From Rufibacter roseolus (GTDB lineage: Bacteria; Bacteroidota; Bacteroidia; Cytophagales; Hymenobacteraceae), in NCBI RefSeq assembly GCF_017916365.1, contig NZ_JAFMSU010000003.1:1240001-1304000 (forward strand): a DNA stretch of 64,000 nt, in the 5' to 3' direction. The position numbers were made by a program, and so were the translations under genes. Each line of letters opens with the position of its first letter. The first letter of the stretch is position 1. The notes under the pieces are model-generated. The model was not told the DNA's origin. It was given only the letters and a program-made list of their open reading frames with translations, and ran no database searches. This document shows, one piece after another, positions 492 through 63,021 of this stretch.

Positions 492-528
492 AAAGAAAGG
501 GCGCCCACGAAGCGCCCTTTCTTTTTAA
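492..528 (+). terminator. Intrinsic terminator after the T9SS gene
   Basis: An inverted repeat (AAGAAAGGGCGC / GCGCCCTTTCTT) with a short loop is followed by a T run, 22 bp after the stop codon. An A run on the other side may let it work on both strands. Confidence 0.8.
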
Positions 529-555
529 GGCCGTTTTCTGCAAAACCGCCCTAAT
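526..555. repeat. Short copy of the dispersed intergenic palindrome
   Basis: A reduced copy of the about 40-bp palindrome family (GGCCGTTTTCTGCAAAACCGCCC core). It sits directly behind the terminator of the T9SS gene. Confidence 0.5.
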
Positions 556-628
556 TCAGATTGATGCTTTAGAAACATAGCTTTACTTCTCTTAACATAA
601 AAGGCTTGCACACTTCCAGCAATAAATA

Positions 629-668
629 AAAAAAGGTGGCTCCTAACGCCAGGAGCCACCTTTTTTTT
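629..668 (-). terminator. Intrinsic terminator of the acidic-protein gene
   Basis: AAAAGGTGGCTCCT / AGGAGCCACCTTTT forms a 14-bp stem with a 6-nt loop and T/A runs on both sides. It lies 27 bp beyond the stop codon of the minus-strand gene at 695-1171. Confidence 0.85.
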
Positions 669-694
669 ATAATGCAACCGTTAAGCAATGGTTT

Positions 695-1171
695 TTACTC
701 CTCGTCATCCAGGTAGTAATCGCCTACGTGGCCCTCGGCCGAGTCGTCGCTGAAACGGGTGATGTCTTTCATAAAGTTGTCGTGGATCTGCTTGATCTTG
801 GGTGACTCGCCCACGTGCTTTTTCAGGATTTTGGCAATGTTGCTGGCTTCTTCCAGGTAGAACATGTCATCAGTGGCGGTACCCAGTTTGTCGGCGTCCA
901 CCTGCAGCAGTTCGGTCTGGAGATCCATCAGTTTGGGGTCGTCCTCGCCGTACATGATGAGCGTACCGTGCAGTTTGCTCAGCATCTCGTTGAAAAGCTC
1001 ACCCTCGTACGGAAGGTTCACTTCCTCGTCATCATCTGCGCCAAAGCCGCCTCTGCCCCCTAAAACGTCATCATCGTCGTCGTCAAAGGAGAACTCATCA
1101 TCAAAATGGCTGTTGTTGAAATCCTCGTCATCGTAGCCATACTCGTCATCGTAACTGCCGCGTGGTGCCAT
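695..1171 (-). CDS. Acidic conserved hypothetical protein
   Basis: 158 residues of unknown function. The N-terminal 50 residues are extremely acidic and low-complexity, with repeated DDEYGYDDED and DDDDDD runs and Gly/Phe/Asn interruptions, so this part is probably disordered. Residues of roughly 52-145 look like a compact helical domain (LPYEGELFNEMLSKLHGTLIMYGEDDPKLMDLQTELLQVDADK). A second short acidic tail closes the protein. There is no signal peptide or membrane segment, so it should be cytosolic. It is a single gene with its own terminator, divergent from the aldehyde dehydrogenase. The acidic tails suggest a nucleic-acid mimic or a partner of a basic protein, but that is speculation. 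Confidence 0.75.
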   Translation of the reverse strand: MAPRGSYDDEYGYDDEDFNNSHFDDEFSFDDDDDDVLGGRGGFGADDDEEVNLPYEGELFNEMLSKLHGTLIMYGEDDPKLMDLQTELLQVDADKLGTATDDMFYLEEASNIAKILKKHVGESPKIKQIHDNFMKDITRFSDDSAEGHVGDYYLDDEE

Positions 1172-1288
1172 ATCAGTTTGTTTTAAATGCTGTCAAAAAT
1201 GTTGTTTGCCTGTTTTGGGTTGGTCTCCTTTTTACGAGTGCGTTTTAAAAAGTATCCGCCAATTGGGTAAAACTTTCTTTATTATTTG

Positions 1289-1326
1289 CGTTTTGGAGCC
1301 GCTTCCGCAAAAATAGCCCAAAATCG
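1289..1326. repeat. Dispersed intergenic palindrome, degenerate copy
   Basis: GCGTTTTGGAGCCGC...AAAATAGCCCAAAATCG pairs imperfectly around a CTTCCGC loop, as in the better copies at 2931 and 21810. It lies in the divergent promoter region between 695-1171 and the aldehyde dehydrogenase. Confidence 0.5.
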
Positions 1327-1452
1327 TATTTATGCTATTTTTTGCCTTGGACCTGCGGCTATGGCCTAAATTTTTATTTTCACTTCCTGTACCGTCTGCA
1401 GCCATTTTGCGGGGAGCAGAGTATATGCAGGTAATCCCAAGGACTTAAAACT

Positions 1453-2838
1453 ATGACCTCGCCACAGGAACCGGAGACGCTGGTGCAACGCCAGAAGGAA
1501 TTTTTCAACAGCGGGCAGACCCGCCCGCTCGCTTTCCGGACAAAGATGCTGCGCCGTCTGCAGAAAGCCATCCAGAAAGAAGAAAAAGCCATCATCGCGG
1601 CACTTTCCGCCGATTTCAGGAAGCCGCCTTTTGAGACTTTCGCCACGGAGATTGCCATTCTGGAGGCCGAGATCAAGTTCCTGCTCAAGCACCTGCGCCG
1701 CTGGATACAGCCGTACCGGGTGAAATCCAGCTTTCTGAATTTCCCGTCCAAAGACTATATCTACCCCGAGCCCTACGGCGTTTCGCTGGTCATTGGCGCC
1801 TGGAACTATCCGTTCCAACTCACCCTGTCGCCGGTGTTGGGGGCCATTGCCGCAGGTTGCTGCGCCATCCTGAAACCCTCAGAACTCACACCCGCCACAA
1901 GCCAACTCCTGGCCCGCCTGATCAAAGAGCATTTTCCGCCGGAGTATCTGACGGTGGTGCAGGGCGGCCCCGAGGTAAGCCAGGCCTTGCTGGAGCAGCC
2001 TTTTGACAAGATATTCTTCACGGGCAGCGTGCCGGTGGGCAGGATTGTGGCGCAGGCGGCGGCCAGACAATTGATTCCGGTCACCTTGGAACTGGGTGGT
2101 AAGAGCCCCTGCCTCATAGACGAAACCGCTGATCTAGCAGTAGCGGCCAAACGCATCATTTGGGGCAAATTCATCAACGCGGGCCAGACCTGCGTGGCCC
2201 CCGATTACCTCTTGGTGCAGGAGAAAGTAAAAGAACCGCTGCTGAAGGAACTGGCCTCTACCATCCAGGAGTTCTACGGTACCAATCCGGCCCAAAGCCC
2301 CGATTTCGCCCGCATTATCAACGAACGTCATTTCCAGCGGCTGAAAGGCTTGCTGGACAGTTCTCCCGTTTACGCTGGCGGCCAATCCGATGCCAGTTCC
2401 CTGTACATTGCCCCTACCCTGCTCGCCAACGTCACCTGGGACCAGCCCATCATGCAGGAAGAAATCTTCGGACCGCTGTTGCCGGTGCTCACCTACAAAA
2501 CGCTGCCCGAGGCCATCCGGCAGGTGAACGCGCGCCCTAAGCCGCTGGCACTTTATCTGTTTTCCAAAAGCAAAAAAGCCAAAGAGATGGTCTTGACGCA
2601 GACTTCCTCGGGCGGGGCTTGTGTCAATGACACCGTTTCGCACTTGGCCAACCCGTTTCTGCCGTTCGGGGGCGTGGGTACCAGCGGTCAGGGCAATTAC
2701 CACGGAAAAGCCAGCTTCGAGGCTTTCTCGCACCAGAAAAGCGTACTCATGAAGCCCTCCAAACCCGATGTGCCGCTCAGATATCCGCCGTACCAGAACA
2801 AATTCAGCTGGATGCGGAAAGCGTTCAAATGGCTGTAG
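1453..2838 (+). CDS. Aldehyde dehydrogenase, class-3-like
   Basis: 461 residues, the length of the compact NAD(P)-dependent class 3 aldehyde dehydrogenases (AlkH/ALDH3 type), which oxidise medium- or long-chain aldehydes to acids. The general base Glu213 lies in VTLELGGKSPC and the nucleophile Cys247 in INAGQTCVAPDYL. The oxyanion and cofactor region EEIFGPLLPVL and the C-terminal PFGGVGTSGQGNYHGK motif are present. It has no signal peptide. The last 35 residues end in an aromatic/basic stretch (FSWMRKAFKWL) like the tails that anchor ALDH3 enzymes to membranes. It stands alone in its orientation, followed by a strong hairpin. The substrate cannot be told from sequence. Confidence 0.92.
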   Translation: MTSPQEPETLVQRQKEFFNSGQTRPLAFRTKMLRRLQKAIQKEEKAIIAALSADFRKPPFETFATEIAILEAEIKFLLKHLRRWIQPYRVKSSFLNFPSKDYIYPEPYGVSLVIGAWNYPFQLTLSPVLGAIAAGCCAILKPSELTPATSQLLARLIKEHFPPEYLTVVQGGPEVSQALLEQPFDKIFFTGSVPVGRIVAQAAARQLIPVTLELGGKSPCLIDETADLAVAAKRIIWGKFINAGQTCVAPDYLLVQEKVKEPLLKELASTIQEFYGTNPAQSPDFARIINERHFQRLKGLLDSSPVYAGGQSDASSLYIAPTLLANVTWDQPIMQEEIFGPLLPVLTYKTLPEAIRQVNARPKPLALYLFSKSKKAKEMVLTQTSSGGACVNDTVSHLANPFLPFGGVGTSGQGNYHGKASFEAFSHQKSVLMKPSKPDVPLRYPPYQNKFSWMRKAFKWL

Positions 2839-2930
2839 CGGATTGCGTTGGCGAACCCCGTTTCAATCTCCATTTTAGAAAGCAGGCCCAAAATCAGGCA
2901 AAGGATTAACCTGATGGATGAAAAAAGCCG

Positions 2931-2978
2931 AAAGCCGTTTCGGGGCTGCTTTCTGTAAAGCAGCCCCGAAACGGCTTT
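2931..2978. repeat. Perfect copy of the intergenic palindrome, probable two-way terminator
   Basis: Two 22-bp arms (2931-2952 and 2957-2978) are exact reverse complements around a CTGT loop. This is the best-preserved member of the family, with the C-for-T change at CTGCTTT matched by AAAGCAG on the other arm. It lies between the convergent aldehyde dehydrogenase and acetyltransferase genes, with an A run on the left and TTTCTGTT on the right, so it could terminate both. Confidence 0.8.
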
Positions 2979-3000
2979 CTGTTCAACTACGCGGGGTCGC

Positions 3001-3456
3001 TTAAACCACGGCAGGCTTTATCATCTTGATGTGGTCAATGCCGTCCTCGTCATAGACCTCGCTGGACTGCACAAACCCAAACCGCTCATAGAATTTCTTT
3101 GCGTACAGTTGCGCCCCAATCTTGATAGGGCCATTGCCGAAGAGCCGGTACGTTTCGTCAATGGCTTTCTGCACCAACTGCTGGCCTACGCCGGAACCGC
3201 GTACGGCAGCGCTGGTGATGATCCGGCCAATGGAAAGCTCGGGGTAAGAGACGCCGGCCGGTAGCAGCCGGGCATAGGCCTCCAGCGTGGTGCCGCGGTA
3301 GAAAAGCAGGTGATGGCATTGGTCATCCAAGCCATCGGGGTCCAGGAAAACGCAGTTCTGCTCCACCACAAACACGGCACTGCGCAGTTGCAACAGATCA
3401 TAAAGTTCTTTTGGAGACAGGTTTGCAAAAGCTTTGGTAATAGTAGTAAACTCCAT
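3001..3456 (-). CDS. GNAT acetyltransferase, ElaA-like
   Basis: 151 residues covering one GNAT fold. The start, FANLSPKELYDLLQLRSAVFVVEQNC, and the DPDGLDDQCHHLLFY segment are typical of the ElaA branch. The acetyl-CoA loop is seen as R-x-x-G-x-G in AAVRGSGVGQQLVQKA, and the C-terminal YERFGFVQSSEVYDEDGIDHIKM strand closes the fold. GNAT proteins move the acetyl group of acetyl-CoA to an amine; ElaA substrates are not established. Cytosolic and monocistronic, converging on the aldehyde dehydrogenase gene. Confidence 0.88.
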   Translation of the reverse strand: MEFTTITKAFANLSPKELYDLLQLRSAVFVVEQNCVFLDPDGLDDQCHHLLFYRGTTLEAYARLLPAGVSYPELSIGRIITSAAVRGSGVGQQLVQKAIDETYRLFGNGPIKIGAQLYAKKFYERFGFVQSSEVYDEDGIDHIKMIKPAVV

Positions 3457-3559
3457 AATGCTGCGAAACTACCTTTTCCCTGCCAGAACCGCCAATTATT
3501 CTTCGCTGGCGCCCATTTTCTGCTTCGGCTCAAGACAAAACCTCTTTTTTATGCCAACG

Positions 3560-3588
3560 TTTGCATAAAAGTCTATATATTTATTTTG
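3560..3588 (+). promoter_or_regulatory. Candidate promoter of the transketolase genes
   Basis: TTTG (3560-3563), an 18-bp gap and TATTTTG (3582-3588) resemble the Bacteroidota -33 TTTG / -7 TAnnTTTG promoter. It would leave a leader of about 120 nt before the start codon at 3714. Inferred from pattern only. Confidence 0.4.
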
Positions 3589-3713
3589 CGAACAAGAATC
3601 TGAATGGCTAAATTAATTGTTAATTTTACACTTATTATCCGTTAAGACCTTATCGGTAGCCTGCGCTCTCCTTCAGGAACCAGGCTTTTGAAAGCAACAG
3701 ACTATTAATCTAT

Positions 3714-4577: not shown

Positions 4578-4651
4578 CAGCAGGCGGCAAGTCTCCAGGA
4601 TTTCACCTACACAGCACTTGTCACCTTAAGCTTAATCCAATCAAAAGCCCA

Positions 4652-4694
4652 GCTGTTTAGAGGCCATTTTCTACAAAACAGGCCTAAAACGCCG
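4652..4694. repeat. Dispersed intergenic palindrome between transketolase subunits
   Basis: CTGTTTAGAGGCC...AGGCCTAAAACGCC with the usual TTTTCTACAAAA centre. It lies in the 155-bp gap between the two transketolase genes, so it is probably transcribed. Confidence 0.65.
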
Positions 4695-4732
4695 AGGCTA
4701 AAAATCATCCATAACCGTTGAGAATCATTCAA

Positions 4733-5701: not shown

Positions 5702-5756
5702 ATTGATCAGCCTCGGCTTTGCCGATAGAAGAAAATAAATAGGATATAGGGAAAGG

Positions 5757-5782
5757 CGGGCTCTTTTGGAGCCCGTTTTTTT
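5757..5782 (+). terminator. Terminator of the transketolase operon
   Basis: CGGGCTC-TTTT-GGAGCCCG followed by seven T residues, 55 bp after the stop codon. Confidence 0.9.
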
Positions 5783-5826
5783 GTTTTCCCCGTATGCCTT
5801 TACTTACCCCTAACCCTTACGCGTAC

Positions 5827-6504: not shown

Positions 6505-6506
6505 AA

Positions 6507-6547
6507 CCTGTTTTGGGCCTGTTTTTAGGAAAACAGGTTTGAAGCAG
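6507..6547. repeat. Dispersed intergenic palindrome
   Basis: CCTGTTTTGGGCCTG...GAAAACAGGTTTGAAGCAG, starting 3 bp after the stop of the HAD gene; the right arm has diverged. Confidence 0.65.
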
Positions 6548-6775
6548 ATGTGACTTCCGCGCCATAATATCTCATGAGCCGCTCTCCCCCTCCTTTTGTC
6601 ATTTTGGAAAGATCTTGTGGGCTAATTAGAAAGGCTCTTACTAAACGCTACTACTGTCCGCTACCAAGATCCTTACCAAGAGGACAAATAGGAGGTGAAT
6701 GACTGGCAAATGCATTGGTTAACGGCCTACTGAAAGCGCATTAGCCTATTGAAAGGATTCTTGAGCAACATTCCT

Positions 6776-6899
6776 CCGCTGGCGCGAGCGTCCCGCTCGT
6801 GTCCGCACGCATGCCTTCCCTTGCTGAATACACATTGCAAAACTCATCAAAGAGGATCAGAAATGCGTGCGAACACGAGCGGGACGCTCGCGCCAGCGG
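6776..6899. repeat. Long inverted repeat with GAGCGGGACGCTCG core
   Basis: Arms 6776-6812 and 6863-6899 (37 bp each) are reverse complements with one mismatch around a 50-bp spacer. Each arm is itself a near-palindrome, CGCGAGCGTCCCGCTCGTG. This type of unit is known from REP-like intergenic repeats mobilised by RAYT (Y1-type) transposases. No transposase gene lies nearby. The 473-bp gap around it (6505-6977) holds this element and two copies of the other palindrome and no gene. Confidence 0.8.
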
Positions 6900-6924
6900 T
6901 GGTTTACACCAACAAATAGCCTTT

Positions 6925-6965
6925 CCTGTTTTAGGGCCGTTTTTGTAAAAACAGGCCTAAAACAG
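6925..6965. repeat. Dispersed intergenic palindrome
   Basis: CCTGTTTTAGGGCCG-TTTTTGTAAAA-ACAGGCCTAAAACAG; nearly full symmetry. It ends 13 bp before the stop codon of the minus-strand DUF294 gene, where it may act as its terminator hairpin. Confidence 0.75.
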
Positions 6966-6977
6966 ATGACGCTTATT

Positions 6978-9601: not shown

Positions 9602-9799
9602 TTGGTTGGGTATACTTTGGTAAAGGCGGGTCTGTTACGCCTGGCGTTTAAGGGCTGCTTTTAGATAATTGGCTTTAAAACGAGAAGCGGGTAACTACCA
9701 GATCTCTAGGCATACATCAACAGCAAAGCAAATAAGTACACGAGAACTCCCGCCAACCCGCTTCGGCTTAAAGGCCAAAAGGTACTGCAACAGACGGTA

Positions 9800-9842: not shown

Positions 9843-9860
9843 ATAAGGTTTTATCTTGTA

Positions 9861-15940: not shown

Positions 15941-16004
15941 AAAAGGAGCTCCCGCTTCAAGGCTGGTTTCGTAAAATCAGTCAAGAAACGGGAGCTCCCT
16001 TTTA
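15941..16004 (-). terminator. araR terminator, built on a palindrome copy
   Basis: A long hairpin: outer arms AAAAGGAGCTCCCG / CGGGAGCTCCCTTTT, inner part CTTCAAGGCTGGTTTCGTAAAATCAGTC resembling a degenerate member of the dispersed palindrome. On the minus strand it ends in CCTTTTGGTTT, 75 bp beyond the araR stop. Confidence 0.75.
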
Positions 16005-16896: not shown

Positions 16897-16938
16897 AGTG
16901 TTTAAACAGGTCCGAAGAAAAATATAAACCGGCCTAAA
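16897..16938. repeat. Degenerate palindrome copy upstream of araR
   Basis: GTGTTTAAACAGGTCC...AAACCGGCCTAAAGAC keeps the family's outline with several mismatches. It and the copy at 17029 fill the 362-bp gap (16786-17147); a 61-codon reading frame there overlaps both repeats and is not a convincing gene. Confidence 0.4.
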
Positions 16939-17028: not shown

Positions 17029-17069
17029 GCGTTTAGGACCAGGTTTAACCAAATCAGCCCCGAAACGCC
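17029..17069. repeat. Dispersed intergenic palindrome
   Basis: GCGTTTAGGACCAGGTTT...AAATCAGCCCCGAAACGCC, with a wider loop than the others; next to the terminator at 17078-17132. Confidence 0.5.
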
Positions 17070-19502: not shown

Positions 19503-19542
19503 TTCGTTTTGTAGCCGTTTTGGCCAAAATGAACCTGAAACA
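19503..19542. repeat. Dispersed intergenic palindrome between GH97 and GH43
   Basis: TCGTTTTGTAGCCGTTTTGGCCAAAATGAACCTGAAACAG; arms imperfect. It lies in the 97-bp gap between genes of one operon and supports the downstream start at 19485. Confidence 0.5.
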
Positions 19543-21613: not shown

Positions 21614-21654
21614 GCATTTGGGGGCTGTTTTCAGGAAAACGGCTTTGAAACACG
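21614..21654. repeat. Dispersed intergenic palindrome upstream of GH97
   Basis: CATTTGGGGGCTGTTTTCAGGAAAACGGCTTTGAAACACG, one of two copies in the 286-bp gap between GH97 and GH51. Confidence 0.6.
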
Positions 21655-21809: not shown

Positions 21810-21847
21810 CGTTTTGGGGCTGTTTCTGTAAAAACAACCCCGAAACG
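21810..21847. repeat. Dispersed intergenic palindrome downstream of GH51
   Basis: CGTTTTGGGGCTGTTT-CTGT-AAAAACAACCCCGAAACG, almost fully self-complementary, 23 bp beyond the stop of the minus-strand GH51 gene. Confidence 0.75.
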
Positions 21848-23978: not shown

Positions 23979-26342
23979 CTATTTCAGGAGGCGCACGTAA
24001 TAGATGCCCGCCGTGGAGGAGTTCTCCAGTGCCGTGAAGGTAAGTTTCAGAGTGTTGTCTTTCGCTTTTGCCAGCACCGCCGCGGGTATCTCATAGTCTA
24101 CCTCCACGAATTTATCTCCCAGACTGCCGTCCTGTCGCACGGTCTGCAGCACGGTGCCGTTCACGGAGATGGTGAAGTTCCGGTCGCGGTCAGCACCGAA
24201 GTAAGTGAGGCGCAGTTTGCGGGGGCCTTGCCCTTTGTTTTTGAGGTTATAGCTGAACCAGCCGCGGGCCAGCCGCCAGTGCCGGTCTCTGTGCACGCCG
24301 GTCTCGGTCTTCTCACCCGCAAAACCGTGGTCCGATTCTGGTTGCTGTTCACCGGGCGCTACCTGGTCCACCGTCTGAGCTTCCAAGGCCAGTTTCGCTT
24401 TTTCCATTTCCTTGAGAGCGGCATTTCTCGCCTCCAGGCCTTCGGGCGTAGTCACGGGCCAGTAAACCATGTAGCGCGCATCGTGGATCTGGTAAAAAGG
24501 CACGAGCTGCACCCCCTTGTATTTCTGCGGCTGGATCAAACCCGAGGCTGTAAAGGTAAACGGCTTGCCGGCCACCGGCTGCAGGCCACTCACCACGTCT
24601 TTACTGGTTGACACCAGCACCGGCGCCTCGTCCAAAGAATAGAGCGGCCCGTTGGCGACGTGCCCCATCCGGCTTCCATCGGCTAGGAGGCCGGTGAGAT
24701 CAGTGGAATCCGTTACGGCGGCCAGCACAATAGGGCCCCGCACAAAAGAAACCCAGGGCGAGCCATCGGGCAGGGACTCGGCTTTGGTAGTCATGGGCAA
24801 TGACACGGTCACTACGTCCCCTGATTTCCATTTCCGATTGATGCCCATGTAGCCATTGGCCGCGGTGGTTTCTACCTCTTTGCCGTTTACCTGCACAGTG
24901 AACTTGCCTTGCTGCACCCATTTTGGCTGACGGATGTAGAGGGTGAATTTCTGCGCTTTTTTCAATTTCAGGCTTATAGCCGAGGTTTCCTCAAAAGGGA
25001 ATTTGGTATTCTGCGTTACGGTCAGGCCTTTCTCCTGCCAGTCCAGGGTGGAGGGCAGAAACAGGTTCACGTACAGGTCTTTGTCTGAATGGGCGTACAC
25101 CAACTCGCCGTACTTGCCGTGGTTTTCTAACCCCGAACCCACACAGCACCAGAAATCTTCCTGGGGCTGGGAGTACACGCGATAGTGCCGCGGCCGCATG
25201 GAGGTGAAATACACAAAACCGCCTTTCTCGGGGTGCTGCGAAGAGAGGATGTGGTTGTACATGGCCCGCTCATAGTAATTGAGGTAATCTGCCGAGGCGC
25301 TGGACAGGTACAACTGCTTCGTGAGTTTGAGCATGTTGTAGGTATTACAGGTCTCGGGCCCCTCCTTGCTTTCCAGCATGGACGTGAAATTGTTGGCCGG
25401 ATGGAAGTGCTCGCTCACGCTGTTGCCGCCAATGGACACCGTGCGGTTATCCACCACCGTTTTCCAGAAGAAAGCCGCCGCGTTGCTCCAGGTCTGGTCC
25501 TTAGTGAGTTCCGCCACCCGTTGGTAACCTATCACCTTTGGGATCTGGGTATTGGCGTGCATGCCGTTCAAGGCATCCTTGCCCTGCAGCAAAGGATTGA
25601 GCACCGAGGTCTGGGAGAACCGCTTGGCCAGCGTCAGATATTTGGCATCACCGGTGATTTCCGCCACATCCGCGAAGACCTCGTTCATGCCGCCGTGCTC
25701 GCTGCGCAGCATATCCTGAATCTGAGCATCGGAGAGGTTGGCGGTCAGGTCCACTGCCCAATCAGAAAGCTTGATGAGCATTTGCTTCGCCTTCTCGTTT
25801 CCGGCAAACAGGTAAGCATCCCGCAGCCCCGAATAGGTTTTATGGATGTTGTAAAGAGGAACCCATTTCTTGTTCAGGGAGAAACTGCCGGCCTCTATCT
25901 TGCCGGCCTTGATGTCCTGCCACATCTGCCTGCCGCCGGGCGTGCCGCCCAGGTAACCATCACCGCTTTTTTGTTGGCAGGCCTCCAGCGCATCTACCAT
26001 GTAGTTGAGGCGCTGCAAGACTTCCTGGTTTCCGGTGGCCGCGTACATGAGCGCCAGCGCCGACAGGTAGTGCCCCCCGATGTGCCCGTCTAAGCCAGTG
26101 TTTTCCCAGTTGCCGTAGTTCTGTGCCTTGGGCTGGATTCCGGCCTCTTTTTGAAAAGGGGCCAATAAACGGTCTGGGTTCAGAGACAGCATATACGCCA
26201 GATCGGTCTGTTGCGCTTGCCGGAAAGGACTTTCCAGCAGCCGCACAGAAGACAATGGGAAGCTTTGCAGTTTACCAGCCTGGGCAAACGTCACCGCCGG
26301 AACCAGAGCCAATACCAGAACTTTTAACGCCTTTGAAATCAT
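23979..26342 (-). CDS. GH127 beta-L-arabinofuranosidase
   Basis: 787 residues from the ATG at 26342, followed by a signal peptide (ALKVLVLALVPAVTFAQ). A longer frame upstream would cross a palindrome copy. Alpha/alpha toroid of the HypBA1 type with the unusual zinc-thiolate active site: Glu330 and Cys332 in GPETCNTYNML, and the pair Cys399-Cys400 in DFWCCVGSGLE, one of which is the nucleophile. C-terminal beta-sandwiches and a region near residues 620-780 close the protein. It removes beta-L-arabinofuranose, a linkage found in plant extensin, pectin and arabinogalactan glycans, so the locus targets more than plain alpha-arabinan. Confidence 0.92.
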   Translation of the reverse strand: MISKALKVLVLALVPAVTFAQAGKLQSFPLSSVRLLESPFRQAQQTDLAYMLSLNPDRLLAPFQKEAGIQPKAQNYGNWENTGLDGHIGGHYLSALALMYAATGNQEVLQRLNYMVDALEACQQKSGDGYLGGTPGGRQMWQDIKAGKIEAGSFSLNKKWVPLYNIHKTYSGLRDAYLFAGNEKAKQMLIKLSDWAVDLTANLSDAQIQDMLRSEHGGMNEVFADVAEITGDAKYLTLAKRFSQTSVLNPLLQGKDALNGMHANTQIPKVIGYQRVAELTKDQTWSNAAAFFWKTVVDNRTVSIGGNSVSEHFHPANNFTSMLESKEGPETCNTYNMLKLTKQLYLSSASADYLNYYERAMYNHILSSQHPEKGGFVYFTSMRPRHYRVYSQPQEDFWCCVGSGLENHGKYGELVYAHSDKDLYVNLFLPSTLDWQEKGLTVTQNTKFPFEETSAISLKLKKAQKFTLYIRQPKWVQQGKFTVQVNGKEVETTAANGYMGINRKWKSGDVVTVSLPMTTKAESLPDGSPWVSFVRGPIVLAAVTDSTDLTGLLADGSRMGHVANGPLYSLDEAPVLVSTSKDVVSGLQPVAGKPFTFTASGLIQPQKYKGVQLVPFYQIHDARYMVYWPVTTPEGLEARNAALKEMEKAKLALEAQTVDQVAPGEQQPESDHGFAGEKTETGVHRDRHWRLARGWFSYNLKNKGQGPRKLRLTYFGADRDRNFTISVNGTVLQTVRQDGSLGDKFVEVDYEIPAAVLAKAKDNTLKLTFTALENSSTAGIYYVRLLK

Positions 26343-26392: not shown

Positions 26393-26434
26393 GTTGTTTT
26401 AGCCCTCTTTTTTCTAAAATACGGCTAAAACGGG
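26393..26434. repeat. Dispersed intergenic palindrome between GH43 and GH127
   Basis: GTTGTTTTAGCCCTC...CTAAAATACGGCTAAAACGGG; arms partly mismatched. It lies in the 157-bp gap between two genes of one operon. Confidence 0.55.
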
Positions 26435-29672: not shown

Positions 29673-32600
29673 TTAGAAACCAACCTGTACTCCCAACATC
29701 ACGGTTCTTGGTTTAGGAAAAGAACCGTTATCAAAACCAGGCTCAAACACGCCAGCGGTGAAATCAGGATTGTATCCTTTGTATTTCTGGAAAGTGTAAA
29801 GATTTTGGGCGGTTACATACACCCGTGCCTTGTTTATTCCTTTGACCAGGCCTTCTTTGAAGTTGTAACCCAGAGACACCGTGTTGATGCGCAGGTGGGT
29901 TCCGCTTTGCAACCAGCCTTCTCTGTTAGAATCTCTGCCGTTCTCGTTAGGGTCGGTCCAGATCAAACGTGGGATGTCTGTGTCGGTGTTGGTGGAGGTC
30001 CACCGGTCCAGGATATCCTCGTGCCAGTTGTCATCGCCACCGGTGTGCATGAGGGTTCTGTACAGACGGCTGTTGATAAGGTAACCACCTTTTCCGGAGG
30101 CGAAGATGGTGAAATCGAAGCCTTTGTAAGAGGCGTTGAGGTTCAAGCCGTAGGTGTATTTAGGAATACCGCTGCCCAGGTAAGTACGGTCATAAGTATC
30201 GATCACGCCGTCTGGGGTACCTTCGGGACCGCTTATGTCTCTGAAGATAAGGTCACCCGGAGCGGTGCCTGGTTTCTGGAAGGCGTGCTGGTCAATCTCT
30301 TCCTGTGACTGGAAGATACCGTCTACAACCCAGCCGTAATGACGGCCAACCTCACCGCCTAGCTCAGTGATGGACCCAACACCCAGTCTTGACTTCACGT
30401 TGGTTCCCAGATCCAGTACTTCGTTCTTCAGGGTAGTGAAGTTCCCTGATACCCCAAAGGTGAAGTCGCCGATGGTTTTGTTGTAACCGGCTGTTACTTC
30501 AAACCCGGTGTTTTTCAAGGTTCCGCCGTTTACCACCGGGCTGGAGTTCACAGACCCTACTGAGGCCGGGATTGGAATGTTCACCAGAACGTCCTCGCTC
30601 TTGCTGTAATAGTATTCAGCAGACAGGTCAATCATACCATCGAACAAGACGGCGTCAAAACCTACGTTAGAGGTGGTTTTCTCTTCCCACTTGATGGTCT
30701 CAGACACCACGTTCGTTTGCAAGCCACCTAACACCCTTTCGCCGTTGTTGAAAGTGTACACCACGTTGGAGTTGATAGCGGGCGAGTAGAGGTAGTTACC
30801 AATGTTCTCGTTACCTAACTTACCCCAGCTGGCTCTGAATTTCAGGTCAGACACAATGGATTTCGGCACGGTAAAAAACTCCTCATTAGAGATTTTCCAG
30901 CCCAGGGCCAGAGAAGGGAAGTAACCGTATCTGTTCACCGGAGAGAAGCGGGACGACCCGTCTCTTCTGAGTGTGGCCGTTAACAGGTATCTGTCATCAA
31001 AGCTGTAGTTCACCCTTCCCAGGAAAGAGGCCAGTACGTGGGCATCCTCGGTTCCGGAAGAAGTACTGGTAGCACCATTGTTCAGGACAGGGAAATACGG
31101 TTTGGTGAACCCCTCGGCGTATCCTTGTCTGAAAATACCTTTCTCTCTCTGGAACATCTGACCTACCAGCACCGCCAGGGAGCTTTTGCCAAAGGTAGCC
31201 TCGTAGTTCAGGGTGTTCTCAATCAGAGAGGTCTCGTATCTTCTTGAGTTGTCATTTAAGCGGGCGATGGCGTTAGGAAAGAAATATCCCAGATTGAAGG
31301 TTGGGATGAAAGTCTTGTCACGCGCTGTTACCACGTCATAGCTCAGGTTCAGTCTATACTTAAGGCTATGGTTGGTTCTTTTCAGCAACTGCAGCTCACC
31401 GTAACCGCTACCAAAGATGCGGTCTACATCTGTAGTGCTGTTGATGAGGCTGTTGTATCCAATCCCGTTGAGAGAGATCGCATCTTCTCTTTCCTGCAGG
31501 GTTCCGCCAAAACCACCTTCTTTGGTAGGGTCATACACGGGCATGGTAGGGATGGCAATCACCAGGTCATTGATCAAAGGCGGGCGGCCACCGGCCAGTA
31601 CCCCGTCTCCTGTTACAAGGCCGTTTTCATGAGAACGGGCATAAAACAGAGACTGCCCGAATTTGAAGATGCCTTTCTCCACCGATGAGTTCACACGGGC
31701 GGTATAACGCTCATAAGATGGGCCGTTGCCTTTGTAAGTACCCTCGTTGCCAAAATAATCAAGGGAGATGTTGTACGTGCTGCTGGTACCGCCCCCTGAA
31801 AGGTTGATGTTATGGTTCTGACGGTTTCCGGTCTTCAGGCCTTCTTCCTGCCAGTCGGTATCAATGTTGTTCACGTATCTAGGATTCTCAGGGTCGTTGG
31901 CCGGCGCAAGCGGCTTGGTGCCTGATCTTAGGCGGGACTCGTTGTTCAAAGTCTGGTAGTTGGCGCGGTTGGTTACCGGCATTTTCTGCCAAACCTCATC
32001 TATTCCGTAATACCCGTTGTATTCAATCTGCAGCGGGGTCTCTTTTCTACCTTGTCTGGTGGTAATGATCACTACCCCGTTAGCGGCCCGGGAACCGTAG
32101 ATAGCCCCGGCAGAAGCATCTTTCAACACCTGCATAGACTCAATATCATTAGGGTTAAAATCGCGCGGCACCCCGCTGATAGGCACTCCGTCTATCACGT
32201 ACAAGGGGTCTGAGTTCCCGAAAGTACCTATCCCTCTGATTCTTACCTGCGGAAACGCCCCTGGCTGACCATCGGTATTCACACTTACCCCTGAAACGCG
32301 GCCCTGAAGCATGGACCCTACATCATTGGTAGAAACTTTCTTCATATCGGCTACGTTTACCACCGCCACCGATCCGGTGATGTCTGATCTGCGTTGGGTA
32401 CCGTAACCCACCACTACTACTTCATCAATGGCCTTGGCGTCTGTCTCCAGCACAACATTAATAGAGGTCTGGTTGTTGAAAGCGACTTCTTTAGACAGGT
32501 ATCCGATATAAGAAACCACCAGGGTTCCGCTAGGGCTGGGCGCTGTTAAGGTAAAATTACCGTCTACGTCTGTAGAGGTGGCCGTGGTGGTACCTTTCAG

Positions 32601-35010: not shown

Positions 35011-35050
35011 CTGTTTTAAGCCTGATTTTCTAAAAATAACCCCCAAACAA
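35011..35050. repeat. Dispersed intergenic palindrome
   Basis: CTGTTTTAAGCCTGATTTTCTAAAAATAACCCCCAAACAA between the GH51 and GH43 genes; a moderately decayed copy. Confidence 0.55.
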
Positions 35051-35071
35051 ATTACCCAAGTTTCCACTTGT

Positions 35072-35103
35072 GACCTGTTTTCTAGAAAGAAGGCCCGAAA
35101 CGC
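35072..35103. repeat. Partial palindrome copy
   Basis: TGACCTGTTTTCTAGAAAGAAGGCCCGAAACGC, lacking the outer left arm, 21 bp after the copy at 35011. Confidence 0.45.
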
Positions 35104-36170: not shown

Positions 36171-36210
36171 CTGTTTAGAAGCTGATTTCGTAAAAAAGCA
36201 TAAAAAAGCG
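36171..36210. repeat. Degenerate palindrome copy
   Basis: CTGTTTAGAAGCTGATTTCGTAAAAAAGCATAAAAAAGCG, directly before a terminator hairpin. Confidence 0.45.
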
Positions 36211-40323: not shown

Positions 40324-40768
40324 AAGGCTTTTTGGAAGGAGAAAACTCAAGCATCTTCCAGGAAGCCTATCTATGCTAATTTATCAAAAACAGCCCTAAA
40401 ATACAGACAGCCTGCTTCTAAGCAGAAACCCATTGTTTGGATGGGAATCCATGCTTCGCTATCTACCTGTTATTTAATTGGTCTGTATCTTCTGAATTCC
40501 TTTCTCCCTTTTGCTGAAGGCTCATTCCTTCTCTCTCCAAAAATTCAACAGAACAGATAGAACTATAAGCTTAATCCATTAATTTATTGGATTTCAGATT
40601 TTATAAATTAACTTACTCTTAAATCTAACGCTTTCTGGGAATCAAATAGACTTACGTCTTAAAGGCCTTTGTATGCCCTTAAGCCGGCCAGAAACTGTAA
40701 ACTTACGTCCCCCGCAAGTCTCCTCAATCAAAGTAAATCTTCCATATTCTTGCTTTAAAGGGATTCCT
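40324..40768. other. Intergenic region with a half palindrome
   Basis: 445 bp, AT-rich, no gene seen. A right half of the dispersed palindrome (AAAAACAGCCCTAAAATACAG) lies at 40381-40402. Confidence 0.45.
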
Positions 40769-51374: not shown

Positions 51375-51415
51375 CCTGTTTTAAGGCTGTTTTCCGGAAA
51401 ACGGGCCTGAAACAG
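51375..51415. repeat. Dispersed intergenic palindrome
   Basis: CCTGTTTTAAGGCTG-TTTTCCGGAAAA-CGGGCCTGAAACAG, near-complete symmetry. Confidence 0.75.
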
Positions 51416-51646: not shown

Positions 51647-51688
51647 GCCGTTTCGAGACTGTTTTGCTTAAAACAGCCCCGAAACGGC
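51647..51688. repeat. Dispersed intergenic palindrome behind mutS
   Basis: GCCGTTTCGAGACTG-TTTTGCTTAAAA-CAGCCCCGAAACGGC, 47 bp beyond the mutS stop codon; two mismatches between arms. Confidence 0.75.
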
Positions 51689-54375: not shown

Positions 54376-54455
54376 AGCGGTATAATGTGCTAATTATGTA
54401 ATGTGCTGATGTGCTAATTCTAGATTAGCCTCCACAACCTTCTGTTGTTTGGCGG

Positions 54456-54499
54456 CCTTGTTTCAGGCCTGATTTTTTTAATAACAACCCTAAAACAGG
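54456..54499. repeat. Dispersed intergenic palindrome
   Basis: CCTTGTTTCAGGCCTGATTTTTTTAATAACAACCCTAAAACAGG, one of two copies in the divergent gap between mutS and the methyltransferase. Confidence 0.6.
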
Positions 54500-54531
54500 G
54501 TCCTCTTCTCTTTGAGCCTTTCTCCAGAGCA

Positions 54532-54571
54532 CAGGTTTTCAGCCCGATTTTCCTGACACGGGGCAAAAACG
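54532..54571. repeat. Degenerate palindrome copy
   Basis: CAGGTTTTCAGCCCGATTTTCCTGACACGGGGCAAAAACG, 66 bp before the methyltransferase start. Confidence 0.5.
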
Positions 54572-54637
54572 TTCCTATGCCCACAATGTGTTACCTTTGC
54601 AGGACATTCCGGCCCACGGCCGATTACCTTTTCAACT

Positions 54638-55183: not shown

Positions 55184-55217
55184 GGGAGAATCTCAGGGTA
55201 AACCTTACCCCTACTTA

Positions 55218-55265
55218 CATAAAAAGAGAGGCCTGCTCCGGGGGAGCAGGCCTCTCTTTTTATGA
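55218..55265. terminator. Bidirectional terminator after the methyltransferase
   Basis: CATAAAAAGAGAGGCCTGCTCC / GGAGCAGGCCTCTCTTTTTATG, 22-bp arms and a GGG-centred loop; it lies between convergent genes. Confidence 0.92.
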
Positions 55266-55277
55266 TCTGGCTGACAG

Positions 55278-55670: not shown

Positions 55671-55783
55671 AATTGTAAGTTTTTTGTTTGATTGTTGTTT
55701 TACGATATGGTAGAAAGCAGCACCCTCAAAGGTGTCAGGTAAGGATTCTGGTAAGTAAAGTGCCTTTAAACAGCCGCTAAAGG

Positions 55784-60100: not shown

Positions 60101-60801
60101 CAGTAGCGGGTGGTCTGGTACACCGCCGAGGCCCCGAACGGGTCCACCAGGTTCGCGAGCAAGTCATTGTCCAGGTCATTGGTGAGGGCACTGGAAACGC
60201 CGTACAGCACCAGCACCAGCACGCTCCCAATGTACACCGCCAGCATGTTGCGGGTCAGCGTGCCCAGGGTGAAGAAGATGGCGCCCGTAAGCAGCAAATT
60301 AGGGATCACGATGAGCAGGAAAGGCTGCACGTAGGACATGACGTTGAACGGCCCGAACCTGGTCGCCTCCACCGAAGGGAACAGCGGGGCCACCGCCGAG
60401 GCGAAGATGTAACCGAACGCAATGCCGGAGAACACCAGCAGCGTCACCAGGAACGATCCCCAGAAACGCCCGCCCAGGTAGCTCCACTTGGAGATAGGCG
60501 TGGTGAAGAACAGCGAATGCGTTTTGTGCTCAAAATCACGGTACACGGGGTTACCCATCATGGCCGAGGTCACCAGCACGCCAAACCAGCTCAGGATGGT
60601 GATGACCCAGTTTATCTGGTAGGGCGAGTTGGCCTTCACTGAGACACTGCTGCCCCCGCCAATGATCACCGTGCCGCCAAAGACCCCGCTCACGCCAAAC
60701 ACGCACAGCAAAGCCATCAGGAAGAAGAGGAAGAAATAGATATAAGTAGCTGGCCGTTTCAGGCGGTACTTCAGCTCAAAGAGGAATATATTCAGGAACA
60801 T
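57172..60801 (-). CDS. ABC-2 permease fused to M1 metallopeptidase
   Basis: 1209 residues. The first half (about 1-590) has twelve or so membrane helices in two ABC-2 permease units (PVYRDFEHKTHSLFFTTPISKWSYLGGR; VWRERDARMNQLYDALPIPNW). The second half (about 620-1190) is an extracytoplasmic M1 aminopeptidase-like domain with His947-Glu948-x-x-His951 and a downstream Glu971 in STLMSETMSQY. The zinc site is complete, so it may cleave N-terminal residues or process an exported peptide. The gap between HEXXH and Glu is one residue longer than in classical M1 enzymes, as in other permease-linked members that I recall. It works with the ATPase encoded 48 bp upstream. The transported substrate is unknown. 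Confidence 0.9.
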   Translation of the reverse strand: MFLNIFLFELKYRLKRPATYIYFFLFFLMALLCVFGVSGVFGGTVIIGGGSSVSVKANSPYQINWVITILSWFGVLVTSAMMGNPVYRDFEHKTHSLFFTTPISKWSYLGGRFWGSFLVTLLVFSGIAFGYIFASAVAPLFPSVEATRFGPFNVMSYVQPFLLIVIPNLLLTGAIFFTLGTLTRNMLAVYIGSVLVLVLYGVSSALTNDLDNDLLANLVDPFGASAVYQTTRYWTAAEQNTLVLPLSQQILWNRLLWDGLAVLLLIICFWRFSFSFFASEGKVRKLRREEAPGIIATAQRISLPKVSQEFSFGRSFGQFWKLTKLEFKGIVRSVYFIAIVVAGIIFLLSTASQIGKIYDTNTYPVTSEVVAILGGTFALFMLIIITFYSGELVWRERDARMNQLYDALPIPNWVPFTSKLVALMGIQVVLMAVVLVCGIIIQAAKGYFNFELGLYVKALFGLQLVDYLLMCALAMLVQVLVNNKYLGHFIMVVYYLANIFKGQLGFEHLLYSYSSDPGAPYSAMNGYGHFVGPFLLFKVYWGAFAIILALVSNLLWVRGTEARLKGRFKLAALQLNRSTLVVLGGAATVFIICGGFIFYNTNVLNEYRDADDNERLQATFEKTYKKYQHLQQPRVVDVYLETDLYPKEREFHFKGYYWLKNKTNVAIDSVHIMLDDNAVIKQLEFARPAKTVLFDKTMGYHIFRLAQPLAPGDSVKLNMDLLYQTKGFKQRSYNTGIVYNGTFINSQLLPHIGYQEALELADDDTRKENGLKPKERMAKVNDLKARQNTYISNDADWINFETVVSTVPDQIALAPGYLQKEWTKNGRRYFHYKMDSPILNFYSFLSADYEVKKDKWNDVAIEVYYQKGHEYNLDRMIKGVKKSLDYYTANFSPYQHRQVRILEFPGYSAFAQAFPNTIPFSESIGFIADVDDKDPEDIDYPFYVTAHEVAHQWWAHQVIGGDVQGSTLMSETMSQYSALMVMKKEYGPERMKKFLKYEMNNYLLGRAGERKKELPLALVENQQYIHYRKGSVVMYALADYIGEDKLNAALKEYVQKVAFQQAPYTNSVEFLSYIRKATPDSLQYLVDDMFENITLYENKATEASAVKQKDGSYKVSLTVDAKKFRADSLGNESPAPLNDYVDVAVITRKKIAGIWQDFPLYLQKQRIKAGQNKIEVIVKEKPERAGVDPLNKLIDRNPNDNTKEVTVKS

Positions 60802-60809
60802 AGCTTCGT

Positions 60810-60848
60810 CGCTTTAGGTCTGATTTGTATAAAATAGCCTCAAAACGG
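60810..60848. repeat. Dispersed intergenic palindrome between ABC genes
   Basis: CGCTTTAGGTCTGATTTGTATAAAATAGCCTCAAAACGG fills nearly the whole 48-bp gap between the ATPase and the permease/peptidase gene, so it is transcribed and may affect translation of the second gene. Confidence 0.6.
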
Positions 60849-60849
60849 C

Positions 60850-61764
60850 CTATCCGATTACTTCTGCCTCGGGTCTCTGCTGCGGTGCATTCCGGGTCAC
60901 CCCGCTGATGGTCGCGAAGTACACATCCTCCAGATCGGGCTGCACCGGCTCAAACTCCAGACCGGGGCGGGCATCGGCGTAGACGTGGATGATGGTTTTG
61001 CCGGCGAACAGCCTGGACGAGATCACGGCGTGCTCAGCCTGGTGCTGCGCCAGTTCTTCTTTTTTGATGAACTTCCGCCAGATCTGCCCCTGCATCTGCT
61101 CAATGGCCTGCAGCGGCTCGCCGGTGGCCAGCACCTCGCCTTTGTTGATGATAGCCATGTTCCGGCACAGGTCGCTCACATCGTCCACAATGTGCGTGGA
61201 CAGAATCACAATAATGTTCTCCCCGATCTCGCTCAACAGGTTATGGAAACGGTTCCGCTCGGCGGGGTCCAGACCGGCAGTTGGCTCATCCACAATGATG
61301 ATCTTGGGGTTGCCCAACAAGGCCTGCGCAATCCCGAAGCGCTGTTTCATCCCACCGGAGTAGCCGCCCAGGTTCTTTTTGCGCACTTCGTAGAGGTTGG
61401 TCTGCTGCAGCAGCGAGGCCACGGTCTCTTTCCGCTCTTTGCTGTTGTGGATGCCCTTGAGCACCGCAAAATGGTCCAGCAACTCCTCGGCGCTCACCTT
61501 GGGGTACACCCCGAATTCCTGCGGCAGATAGCCCAACACCTTCCGCATCTCGTCCTTCTCCCGGAACACATCCAAATCCCCCAGCCTGATGCTGCCGCTG
61601 TCCGCCTCCTGCAGCGTGGCGATGGTACGCATGAGCGATGACTTCCCCGCCCCATTGGGTCCCAGCAACCCAAACATGCCGGTGGGGATGGTGAGGTTCA
61701 CATCTTTCAGCGCCTGCACGCCGTTGGGGTAGGTTTTGGAAAGGTTCTGGATGATGAGTTCCAT
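60850..61764 (-). CDS. ABC transporter ATP-binding protein
   Basis: 304 residues. Walker A GLLGPNGAGKSSLMRTI (about 33-49), Q-loop GYLPQEFGVYPKV, signature GYSGGMKQRFG, Walker B KIIIVDEPTAGLDP and switch His in VILSTHIVDD. About 80 further residues at the C terminus are a regulatory or partner domain of the ABC-2 exporter type. It powers the fused permease/peptidase downstream. A promoter must lie in 61765-62011. Confidence 0.95.
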   Translation of the reverse strand: MELIIQNLSKTYPNGVQALKDVNLTIPTGMFGLLGPNGAGKSSLMRTIATLQEADSGSIRLGDLDVFREKDEMRKVLGYLPQEFGVYPKVSAEELLDHFAVLKGIHNSKERKETVASLLQQTNLYEVRKKNLGGYSGGMKQRFGIAQALLGNPKIIIVDEPTAGLDPAERNRFHNLLSEIGENIIVILSTHIVDDVSDLCRNMAIINKGEVLATGEPLQAIEQMQGQIWRKFIKKEELAQHQAEHAVISSRLFAGKTIIHVYADARPGLEFEPVQPDLEDVYFATISGVTRNAPQQRPEAEVIG

Positions 61765-61871
61765 GGTGTGAAAGGGTTTGGTTAGGTAGAGCGATTGGTT
61801 TCTAGAGGATTAGTAGAAAGAAGTTAAGAAAAGTTACAGAGAACCCACCTTTCCATCCTATTTTCTTTCAC

Positions 61872-61912
61872 GCTGTTTAGAGCCCTTTTTACTGAATCGC
61901 GCAGAAAACAGG
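61872..61912. repeat. Degenerate palindrome copy
   Basis: GCTGTTTAGAGCCC...GCGCAGAAAACAGG, weakly symmetric; 33 bp before the terminator of the next gene. Confidence 0.4.
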
Positions 61913-61944
61913 CATAACCAAGTTTCTACCCTGACCTTCGCCAA

Positions 61945-61994
61945 ACAAAAAGCCGATGCCCTTTCTCCGTTGAAGAAAGGGCATCGGCTTTTCT
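61945..61994 (-). terminator. Terminator of the gene at 62012-62668
   Basis: AAAAAGCCGATGCCCTTTCT / AGAAAGGGCATCGGCTTTT with a short CCGTTGA loop; A and T runs flank the stem. Confidence 0.92.
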
Positions 61995-62011
61995 AAGTAT
62001 TTTGAGTTGCG

Positions 62012-62668
62012 CTATACGTAGCGCACTTGCTCCTGGAAAGCACCTTTCCAGAAAGCTGATCTACTTTTCTCTACGGCTTGCACCTTCTGGATCATGGGCA
62101 GCACCTGCGCATCGCCGGTGGCGTAGGTAAAGGTCAGGTCAAAGGCGTAGTGCATCTCAATGCGGTTCTGGGACGCATCGCAAATCGGGAACATGTTCTC
62201 CAGGTCAAAAGTCTCCTGCGCCTCAGGCAGCAAGTTATACTTCTCCAGCACCGATTTGATGATAGCGTTGCATCTGGCTGGTTTAGGGGTTTTCACAATG
62301 CTTTGGCACATGATGAATTGACCGTGCAGGAAGTGCAGGCATTGCGTCACCTTCGCTGACCCAATGGAAGAGAAGTAGAAAAGAACTTCGTGGCCCACCA
62401 CATCCAAGTCTTGATGCACGTGGAATTCGGGTTTGCCCAACAGGCGCCTGGCATCCCGCAGAGAGGCCCCAAAAGCCAAGCCTCTGAAAGTAACCTCCCG
62501 CTTGGTATTGGTTTGTACTTGTTTAGGAGCAGACAAAGCGTTACGCAGCCCCGCAACGGTGCGCACATAATTCACCCTATCAAAATAATCCTTTTTAGAC
62601 AATCCTCCCACATCTAATCTGTTCTTAGATTTTCTCAACGCCAGTGTTTTCCAGACAGAATTAAACAT
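62012..62668 (-). CDS. Conserved hypothetical protein
   Basis: 218 residues of unknown function. Basic N terminus (about 1-60), then an alpha/beta region: TFRGLAFGASLRDARRLLGKPEFH, a segment with HEVLFYFSSIG, and FDLENMFPICDASQNRIEMHYAFDLTFTYATGD. The FGxSLxDARRLLGKP phrase looks like the repeat that pairs a small helix with a strand in BamE/SmpA-like or DUF-type folds, but the match is loose. It has no signal peptide or membrane segment. Monocistronic. Confidence 0.68.
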   Translation of the reverse strand: MFNSVWKTLALRKSKNRLDVGGLSKKDYFDRVNYVRTVAGLRNALSAPKQVQTNTKREVTFRGLAFGASLRDARRLLGKPEFHVHQDLDVVGHEVLFYFSSIGSAKVTQCLHFLHGQFIMCQSIVKTPKPARCNAIIKSVLEKYNLLPEAQETFDLENMFPICDASQNRIEMHYAFDLTFTYATGDAQVLPMIQKVQAVEKSRSAFWKGAFQEQVRYV

Positions 62669-62981
62669 CTTTAATAATTTTTAACAATATAGCCTTAAAT
62701 GAACTAAATCAGAGTTTACCATTGAATAAGTTCAATTTTGCGCTTTAGCTACTTTATTTCACTTATTCTTAAGCTATTTAAGATGGTTTTCCCAAGCCTC
62801 AAAGCACTTCTTTAAACTTTCCAATAAGTTCCTCTTTTATACTAAAACCTTGTCCTCAGTTTTAAGTAGTCTTCAATATAAAAAAGGATATATCCTATTC
62901 AGCTTTTCTCAAGATTTAGGGCTCTTATAAAGCTACTTTTCAGGTTCAAACAAGCCTTTTTGGCTTCTCATATTCTCTCAT

Positions 62982-63021
62982 CTGTTTAGCGCCTTTAAAC
63001 AAAAAAACAGCCCTGAAACGG
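62982..63021. repeat. Dispersed intergenic palindrome fused to a terminator
   Basis: CTGTTTAGCGCCTTTAAACAAAAAAACAGCCCTGAAACGG; its right arm also serves as one arm of the terminator at 63004-63041. Confidence 0.55.

Follow-up and report, generated by a model that had tools for sequence, protein, structure and literature searches.

Genomes of Rufibacter carry a very large set of intergenic palindromes that hold their places genus-wide and are under constraint as DNA, including at sites where a transcript would have no need of a hairpin. Judging from sequence, we give a probability of about 0.58 to the reading that these palindromes are recognition sites for a dimeric or tetrameric nucleoid or boundary protein, reused as RNA hairpins at gene 3′ ends. 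Intergenic palindromes are often regarded as selfish or relic repeats; because this DNA is constrained without need for a transcript hairpin, its function is directly testable, and the family is a natural example of a consensus change shared by a great many sites. Among the titles listed by literature searches, none deals with sites of this kind in Rufibacter or relatives; two of the papers, under titles on other matters, mention Rufibacter and "palindrom" once each, and a word search of the text of PMC12306157 found no mention of Rufibacter or Hymenobacter.

Sites in the window and across the genus

The window is the whole 64,000-nucleotide stretch of Rufibacter roseolus DNA that was analyzed. 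Sites were scored with a symmetric 36-bp profile built from 10 of 11 exact copies, all ten lying outside the window. Because the 11 copies were found with a pattern taken from the consensus in a preliminary description of the window, that consensus partly shapes the column values. Palindromes scoring at least 10 numbered 26 in the window and 0 in each of six Markov-3 controls and in the reversed window; at scores of at least 6, there were 28, against 2, 1, 0, 0, 0, 0, and 0 in the controls. The preliminary description had listed about 23 full intergenic copies and some half copies. The family is real, with 21 of the 23 full copies scoring at least 10; those at 16897 (absent at ≥6) and 61872 (score 5, with a site scoring 14 at this gap in the nearest species) were not recovered. 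Among the half copies, 40381 proved to be a weak full copy (40367-40402), and 33358, 56581, and 57094 were absent at ≥6. All 21 confirmed copies are intergenic by our own gene caller, as had been claimed of the whole list, and the tRNA-Leu element (44.1-51.0 kb), described as free of copies, is without a site at ≥6. Four sites were added (2860-2894, 9646-9681, 26136-26170, and 31612-31647), the last two of which fall inside called genes. Among known RNA families, only two tRNAs reach gathering scores. The sites scoring at least 10, none assigned to a strand, are as follows.

522-557: site, convergent gap; score 20
1290-1325: site, divergent gap; score 21
2860-2894: weak site, 3-nt center, convergent gap; score 15; newly added
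2937-2972: best copy, convergent gap, perfect stem extending to 2930-2979; score 53
4655-4690: site, codirectional gap between transketolase halves; score 34
6510-6545: site, convergent gap; score 38
6928-6963: site, convergent gap; score 45
9646-9681: site, codirectional gap; score 17; newly added
15954-15989: site, codirectional gap; score 23
17031-17066: site, codirectional gap; score 34
19506-19541: site, codirectional gap; score 17
21616-21651: site, codirectional gap; score 31
21811-21846: site, codirectional gap; score 46
26136-26170: weak match in called gene, 3-nt center, function doubtful; score 11
26396-26431: site, codirectional gap; score 22
31612-31647: match within TonB-receptor-like gene, function doubtful; score 20
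35013-35048: site, codirectional gap; score 32
35066-35101: site, codirectional gap; score 22
36173-36207: weak site, 3-nt center, convergent gap; score 13
40367-40402: weak site (formerly half copy 40381), codirectional gap; score 16
51378-51413: site adjoining tRNA-Gly; score 42
51650-51685: site behind mutS stop codon; score 49
54460-54496: site, 5-nt center, mutS/spoU divergent gap; score 36
54535-54570: weak site, mutS/spoU divergent gap, upstream of TAnnTTTG box; score 10 (second profile, 8)
60811-60846: site filling 48-bp codirectional gap; score 31
62984-63019: site, codirectional gap; score 23

Beyond the window, copy number is likewise above chance: a 464-kb sample of this genome held 194 sites at ≥10 (Markov control, 0; reversed, 1), and 177 of them are intergenic. 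Extrapolation from this sample gives an estimated 2,300 sites in the genome, and a thousand or more copies are estimated per Rufibacter genome. The family was present in all 16 Rufibacter genomes examined (376 sites in G017). Five other genera of Hymenobacteraceae have practically none (1 or 2 sites in 5 of 134 genomes), and 360 kb from these five sister genera yielded no like palindromes by profile, skeleton, or dyad counts. Larger secondary contigs are poor in sites (G006 C2, 1 in 80 kb; G051 C2, 4 in 80 kb; G000 C4, 2 in 60 kb; G042 C4, 1 in 20 kb; G042 C5, 0 in 20 kb); two small contigs are not (3 in 7.5 kb and 3 in 7.3 kb). One exact copy lies on a viral contig, and 12 sites at ≥12 fall well inside called genes.

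Of 339 codirectional sites, 125 follow the upstream stop by no more than 40 bp and 38 are equally close to the next start; only 7 of 95 divergent sites are that close to a start. Of 47 divergent gaps of 40 to 1,000 bp in this genome's sample, 20 carry a site; in this count, gaps of <40 bp were entered as empty, so no claim is made for them, and gaps of >1,000 bp were excluded.

Site architecture and constraint in place

The element comprises four heptads over 40 bp, CYGTTTT-n4-CTGTTTT-n4-AAAACAG-n4-AAAACRG, two forward and two inverted, each half-site repeating CYGTTTT directly with an 11-bp period. Log-odds autocorrelation is 0.65 at 11 bp and 0.53 at 12 bp, with a heptad-heptad r of 0.905 (257 sites), the 11-bp self-likeness being partly due to T-runs. 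The outer TT/AA steps around 90 inner dyads were both kept in 74, one in 13, and none in 3, and lone half-sites numbered 1 to 3 depending on threshold (reversed control, 0). Species dialects, seen as consensus shifts, occur in G048 and G051. Copies in G048 share centers (TGGA in 13 and TCCA in 6 of 50 sites); in G051, the inner heptad is CTCATTT, heptad r falls to 0.42, and autocorrelation peaks at 12 (23 sites), which fits two different reading heads rather than four identical ones.

Sites stay in the same gaps. Among Rufibacter species, orthologous gaps of at least 60 bp were occupied in 101 of 119 cases when the window gap was occupied and in 5 of 76 when it was empty. The mutS/spoU gap holds a site in 16 of 16 Rufibacter species; no position within 1.5 kb on either side of any of 10 outgroup mutS loci scores above 0.4. 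The comparison of orthologous gaps between the two nearest species found presence mostly constant, with little gain or loss: for 71 of 72 sites, some palindrome (score ≥4) occurs in the orthologous gap of G042 (R. hautae), and of 11 gaps with unequal site counts between G000 and G042, 7 reflect one site straddling the threshold and 4 hold a site without evident counterpart.

Identity to G042 at TT/AA columns was.961 in convergent (13 sites),.960 in codirectional (41 sites), and.943 in divergent gaps (9 sites only), against.62 to.68 in flanks,.74 in other A/T runs near sites,.80 in A/T runs far off, and.61 to.62 in the central 4 nt. As read from these identities, constraint is strongest at the TT/AA steps and alike across all gap types; it is site specific and holds regardless of gap type and pairing, as a DNA-binding dyad should behave.

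Arm pairing, mobility, and rival explanations

Pairing statistics rest on eight worn genomes, G042 not among them, which were preferred because dialects inflate the arm coupling seen when the four sharp genomes are pooled. Outer-stem pairing exceeded expectation in convergent (.43 versus.27; z, 7.1) and codirectional (.33 versus.26; z, 4.6) gaps and showed no excess in divergent ones (.22 versus.26; z, −1.6). The matched arm changes reported in the preliminary description are real and, in the worn genomes, hold for the first two gap types and fail for the third; they had been read as a maintained fold or recent copies, and we find that compensation varies with gap type whereas the TT/AA constraint does not. 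The four sharp genomes pooled did give a divergent excess at degenerate columns (.62 versus.46; z, 2.7; 22 sites), which pooled dialects could cause, and G060, even in its convergent gaps (19 sites), shows no excess of outer-stem pairing. Stems in convergent gaps are extended with compensated changes. Unsplit codirectional wobble counts (GU 126 and AC 109 in this genome; 97 and 98 in other species) had suggested no RNA structure, a view that changed when they were split by distance from the stop: oriented GU:AC was 173:120 within 60 nt (P = 0.002) and 150:177 farther off (P = 0.15), these counts including related, nonindependent sites from several species. Most sites lack a terminator T-run: the fraction followed by TTTT or six Ts within 12 nt is.19 for codirectional and.26 for convergent sites. 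Single gaps, e.g., 2839-3000, do have one.

As intergenic palindromes of 20 to 40 bp in high copy number, the sites answer to the description of REPs, and the preliminary description had raised a REP/MITE moved by a transposase elsewhere. Present mobility finds no support: presence/absence differences at orthologous places are scarce between G000 and G042 and genus-wide, and the GTAG/CGTC tag is absent, positions −4 to −1 fitting neither and positions 3 and 4 being T in 99% of 105 sites scoring ≥20. Y1_Tnp matches occur in 15 of 16 Rufibacter genomes (none in G017) and, across a draw of 41 genomes covering all six family genera, in 35. Around the 30 of 45 Y1 matches inspected, the suggested flanking of a Y1-type transposase by the palindrome was not evident as a regular pattern, 4 lacking a site at ≥10 in the stretch inspected and the others having sites at varied distances; the test is weak, the gene itself having been read in about half of the loci and on the plus strand only. 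With Y1 also common in genera practically without sites, RAYT/Y1 homing was provisionally set aside.

An old REP or MITE, spread by a transposase of Y1 type or another kind in a Rufibacter ancestor and now immobile, decaying, and functionless, is in our estimate unlikely. Size, copy number, intergenic place, behind-coding bias, and palindromy match REPs as portrayed in parts of PMC3733652; so many like sites make an origin by spread hard to avoid, and the common centers in G048, the near-universal Y1 matches, and the four sites without counterpart point the same way. Neutral decay, however, would erode columns equally, yet the TT/AA steps are exceptional in all gap classes; there is no tag or evident regular Y1 flanking, G017 has sites without a Y1 match, and larger secondary contigs are site poor. 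REP and BIME elements of E. coli, Pseudomonas, and others, according to sections of PMC3733652, PMC12306157, and PMC3686654, are also 20 to 40 bp, high copy, intergenic, and biased to positions behind coding regions, some plausibly acting as RNA; sections of PMC3733652 describe tagged superfamilies with an unpaired GTAG or CGTC at one end, and part of PMC2817692 records protein binding by REPs/BIMEs. The Rufibacter sites are unlike them in being untagged and symmetric, with four heptads at 11-bp pitch, and in occupying the same gaps genus-wide, divergent ones included, under site-specific constraint and with no evident transposase link.

That the family consists of terminators or mRNA stabilizers acting as RNA, the shared sequence being merely a favored hairpin, seems to us quite improbable. 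The bias just behind stops, the extended compensated convergent stems, and the GU preference near stops argue for it, but divergent gaps are occupied too, with TT/AA identity of.943 and no pairing excess in worn genomes, and few sites are followed by a T-run. A DNA-uptake-like signal, maintained by biased uptake and with dialects as in Neisseriaceae, is highly improbable; many copies, the shifts in G048 and G051, and the exact copy in the viral contig would suit it. Uptake sequences are short and single, whereas these sites are strongly intergenic, 40 bp long, and four-part, with hardly any lone half-sites. Neisseriaceae uptake sequence dialects, as treated in part of PMC3630211, share with the Rufibacter sites thousands of copies and a consensus shifting by species; the latter differ in being much longer, palindromic, and almost only intergenic.

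A putative two-headed binding protein

Of the interpretations first offered, a nucleoid-protein site fits best, and a 3′-end hairpin is right for a subset. Under the preferred reading of DNA recognition sites, the sites would have spread at the base of the genus or earlier, and inheritance in place would since have kept them in most intergenic gaps of 100 to 1,000 bp. Site-specific conservation argues for selection as DNA sites, presumably through a bound protein. The two direct repeats of a site lie one turn of the helix from each other and face two inverted ones; the protein would most likely be a dimer whose subunits each carry two reading heads, or else a tetramer, on one helix face. A genome-wide nucleoid or boundary protein marking or insulating transcription-unit edges is proposed because sites closely follow stop codons and sit midway between divergent genes. 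Where transcribed at a gene 3′ end, the palindrome, often extended, would be kept paired as a terminator or 3′-end protector; the pairing is statistically evident, its effect putative. More tentatively, the sites might form a genus-specific, chromosome-wide punctuation, in which one two-headed predicted protein on four-heptad sites in most longer gaps insulates neighboring units, the sites drifting with the protein as dialects (e.g., CTGTTTT to CTCATTT in G051); we regard this as possible but doubtful.

Counts of HU and PhoB-type matches singled out no candidate for the binding protein. HU counts do not distinguish Rufibacter among 41 genomes drawn (including 8 of 16 Rufibacter), and a genus-specific HU paralog was rejected, each of the 41 having a strong match and further weak ones occurring beyond the genus too. 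PF00486 matches were not diagnostic (5 to 11 in 8 Rufibacter genomes versus 3 to 11 in 33 others), and an extra PhoB-type regulator was likewise rejected, since counts overlap those of other genera. The PhoP box of M. tuberculosis consists of 7-bp direct repeats with a 4-bp spacer, according to part of PMC4832192. Each half-site in Rufibacter likewise has two directly repeated 7-bp units with 4 bp between them, a pitch of 11 bp (not in G051), a likeness to PhoB/OmpR-type boxes in architecture only; unlike those, the Rufibacter sites set two boxes head to head and number about 2,300 copies in this genome.

Abundance and taxonomic range

The genome around the window is a 5.52-Mb Rufibacter genome, and one window protein has its best named relatives in R. 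hautae (92% identity) and in R. sediminis and Rufibacter sp. XAAS-G3-1 (78% each). The ~40-bp palindromic site, built of four heptads, was scored with a symmetric profile built on ten exact copies, all from outside the window. The family proposed in the preliminary description lay well above random expectation: 26 window sites scored ≥10, and neither the reversed window nor any of six order-3 Markov sequences had a single one. A wider sample of 464 kb (the window plus 20 stretches of 20 kb) held 194 sites (Markov control, 0; reversed control, 1), extrapolating to ~2,300 sites per genome; 177 of the 194 were intergenic, despite 78% of bases being called coding. Three sites (scores 33, 15, and 34) fall within one called gene (stretch L064, 8579-10687), and this call may be wrong. 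Among 180 sites at ≥12, the centre was 4 nt long in 158, 3 nt in 21, and 5 nt in 1.

At ≤3 mismatches, 101 to 1,356 matches were found in each of 16/16 Rufibacter genomes (pattern control, 0), one or two in 5/134 genomes from five other genera of the same bacterial family, and, order-wide (194 genomes, 94 genera), matches only in the window's genome (409) and G008 (1). No such site family was detected in 360 kb of five sister genera by profile, skeleton, or de novo dyad counts. Profiles refitted per genome gave 320 to 725 sites per Mb in 16 species (samples of 14 to 480 kb; reversed controls, 0 to 24 matches per sample). The 16 Rufibacter genomes formed one fully supported branch in a mutS tree. 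The sites may have spread in the ancestor of the genus. A perfect site was seen on an IMG/VR contig (L180, 1275-1310), immediately after a terminator-like hairpin.

Placement and conservation of sites

Codirectional sites lie a median of 58 bp after the upstream stop and 128 bp ahead of the next start; divergent sites are mid-gap, with 7/95 at ≤40 bp from a start. Across the three gap classes, 127/208 gaps of 100 to 1000 bp were occupied.

Occupied gaps by class and length (100-200 bp; 200-400 bp; 400-1000 bp), sample of the window's genome
Codirectional: 30/48; 30/42; 20/32
Convergent: 12/19; 5/8; 10/13
Divergent: 0/5; 11/25; 9/16

Sites keep their places. Orthologous gaps in other species were occupied in 101/119 cases where the window gap was occupied and in 5/76 where it was empty. 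The divergent mutS/spoU gap carried a site in 16/16 species, and outgroup mutS loci (n = 10) scored 0.4 or less within 1.5 kb. In the nearest species, taken to be R. hautae (101 gaps comparable), some palindrome at ≥4 occupied the corresponding gap for 71/72 sites, although its position did not always align (L066, 7848, is an example). Site counts differed in 11 gaps; 7 of these reflected a single site straddling the threshold, and the remaining 4 held a site without an evident counterpart. Larger secondary contigs were poor in sites, and two small ones were not. The profile scan agreed with the preliminary description in placing no site in the tRNA-Leu-linked stretch (window 44.1 to 51.0 kb). 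A gene caller trained on the codon usage of the window's genome misses most open frames there, the pattern expected of acquired DNA.

Constraint is site specific. Identity to R. hautae was.93 to 1.0 at columns 3-4, 14-15, 22-23, and 33-34, and elsewhere.54 to.65 (central four),.60 to.66 (several GC columns), and.68 (flanks). Over 58 sites, it was.95 at invariant columns,.74 at variable arm columns,.62 in the centre, and.67 in flanks. The TT/AA steps (near-invariant dinucleotide columns) were.961 identical in convergent (n = 13),.960 in codirectional (n = 41), and.943 in divergent gaps (n = 9); A/T runs outside sites were.74 to.80 identical.

Four-part build, arm pairing, and possible function

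The build is four-part: half-profile self-likeness was 0.65 at an 11-bp shift and 0.53 at 12, and outer CYGTTTY correlated with inner CTGTTTT at 0.905 (257 sites, window's genome plus R. hautae). This correlation was 0.79 in G012, G060, and G048 and 0.42 in G051 (inner heptad CTCATTT, 23 sites). Of 90 inner dyads (≤2 mismatches; reversed control, 1), 74 kept both outer steps, 13 one, and 3 none. Species-specific preferences were GTTTAGGGGCTGTTTT in G048 and GTTTTYGGGCTCATTT in G051. Sites were sharp in G012, G048, G060, and G051 and worn in the window's genome, R. hautae, G006, and G057; such strong differences within one genus would fit weaker selection on the sites in certain species.

Pairing depends on gap type. 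Matched arm changes, as described preliminarily, held for convergent and codirectional sites and failed for divergent ones in eight worn genomes (254 sites at ≥14, expectation from shuffled arms). Observed versus expected pairing was.43 versus.27 in the outer stem and.61 versus.38 at degenerate columns for convergent sites (n = 66),.33 versus.26 and.52 versus.38 for codirectional sites (n = 145), and.22 versus.26 and.44 versus.42 for divergent sites (n = 43). In the convergent gap at 2839-3000, an extended stem with compensated changes is retained by most species, each having its own version. Two observations run counter to this dependence on gap type: outer-stem excess was absent in G060, and divergent sites pooled from sharp genomes had some excess at degenerate columns. 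Oriented GU:AC counts, which include related sites, were 173:120 at ≤60 nt from the stop (P = 0.002) and 150:177 beyond (P = 0.15).

A tagged repetitive extragenic palindrome was rejected on the absent tag and low present mobility; a transposase link may nonetheless exist. A general terminator was likewise rejected, as sites also occupy divergent gaps and T-runs are few. We favor a putative dimeric or tetrameric protein that would bind on one helix face and might serve a boundary or nucleoid role; at transcript ends the paired site would also form a hairpin, with a possible effect on the RNA. The 7-4-7 half-site resembles PhoB/OmpR boxes (PMC4832192), a likeness and not membership.

Besides this family, another intergenic repeat recurs, its arms resembling CGCTGGCGCGAGC...GCTCGTGTCCGCACGC. 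It forms an inverted pair at window 6773-6902, and similar stretches lie in gaps L066 7628-8241, L072 18199-18605, and one of G054. A third, around CATCCTGAAAGGATCTTGTGGG...TTTCAGGATGACA, lies in the mutS/spoU gap of G063 and G037 and in the same L072 gap.
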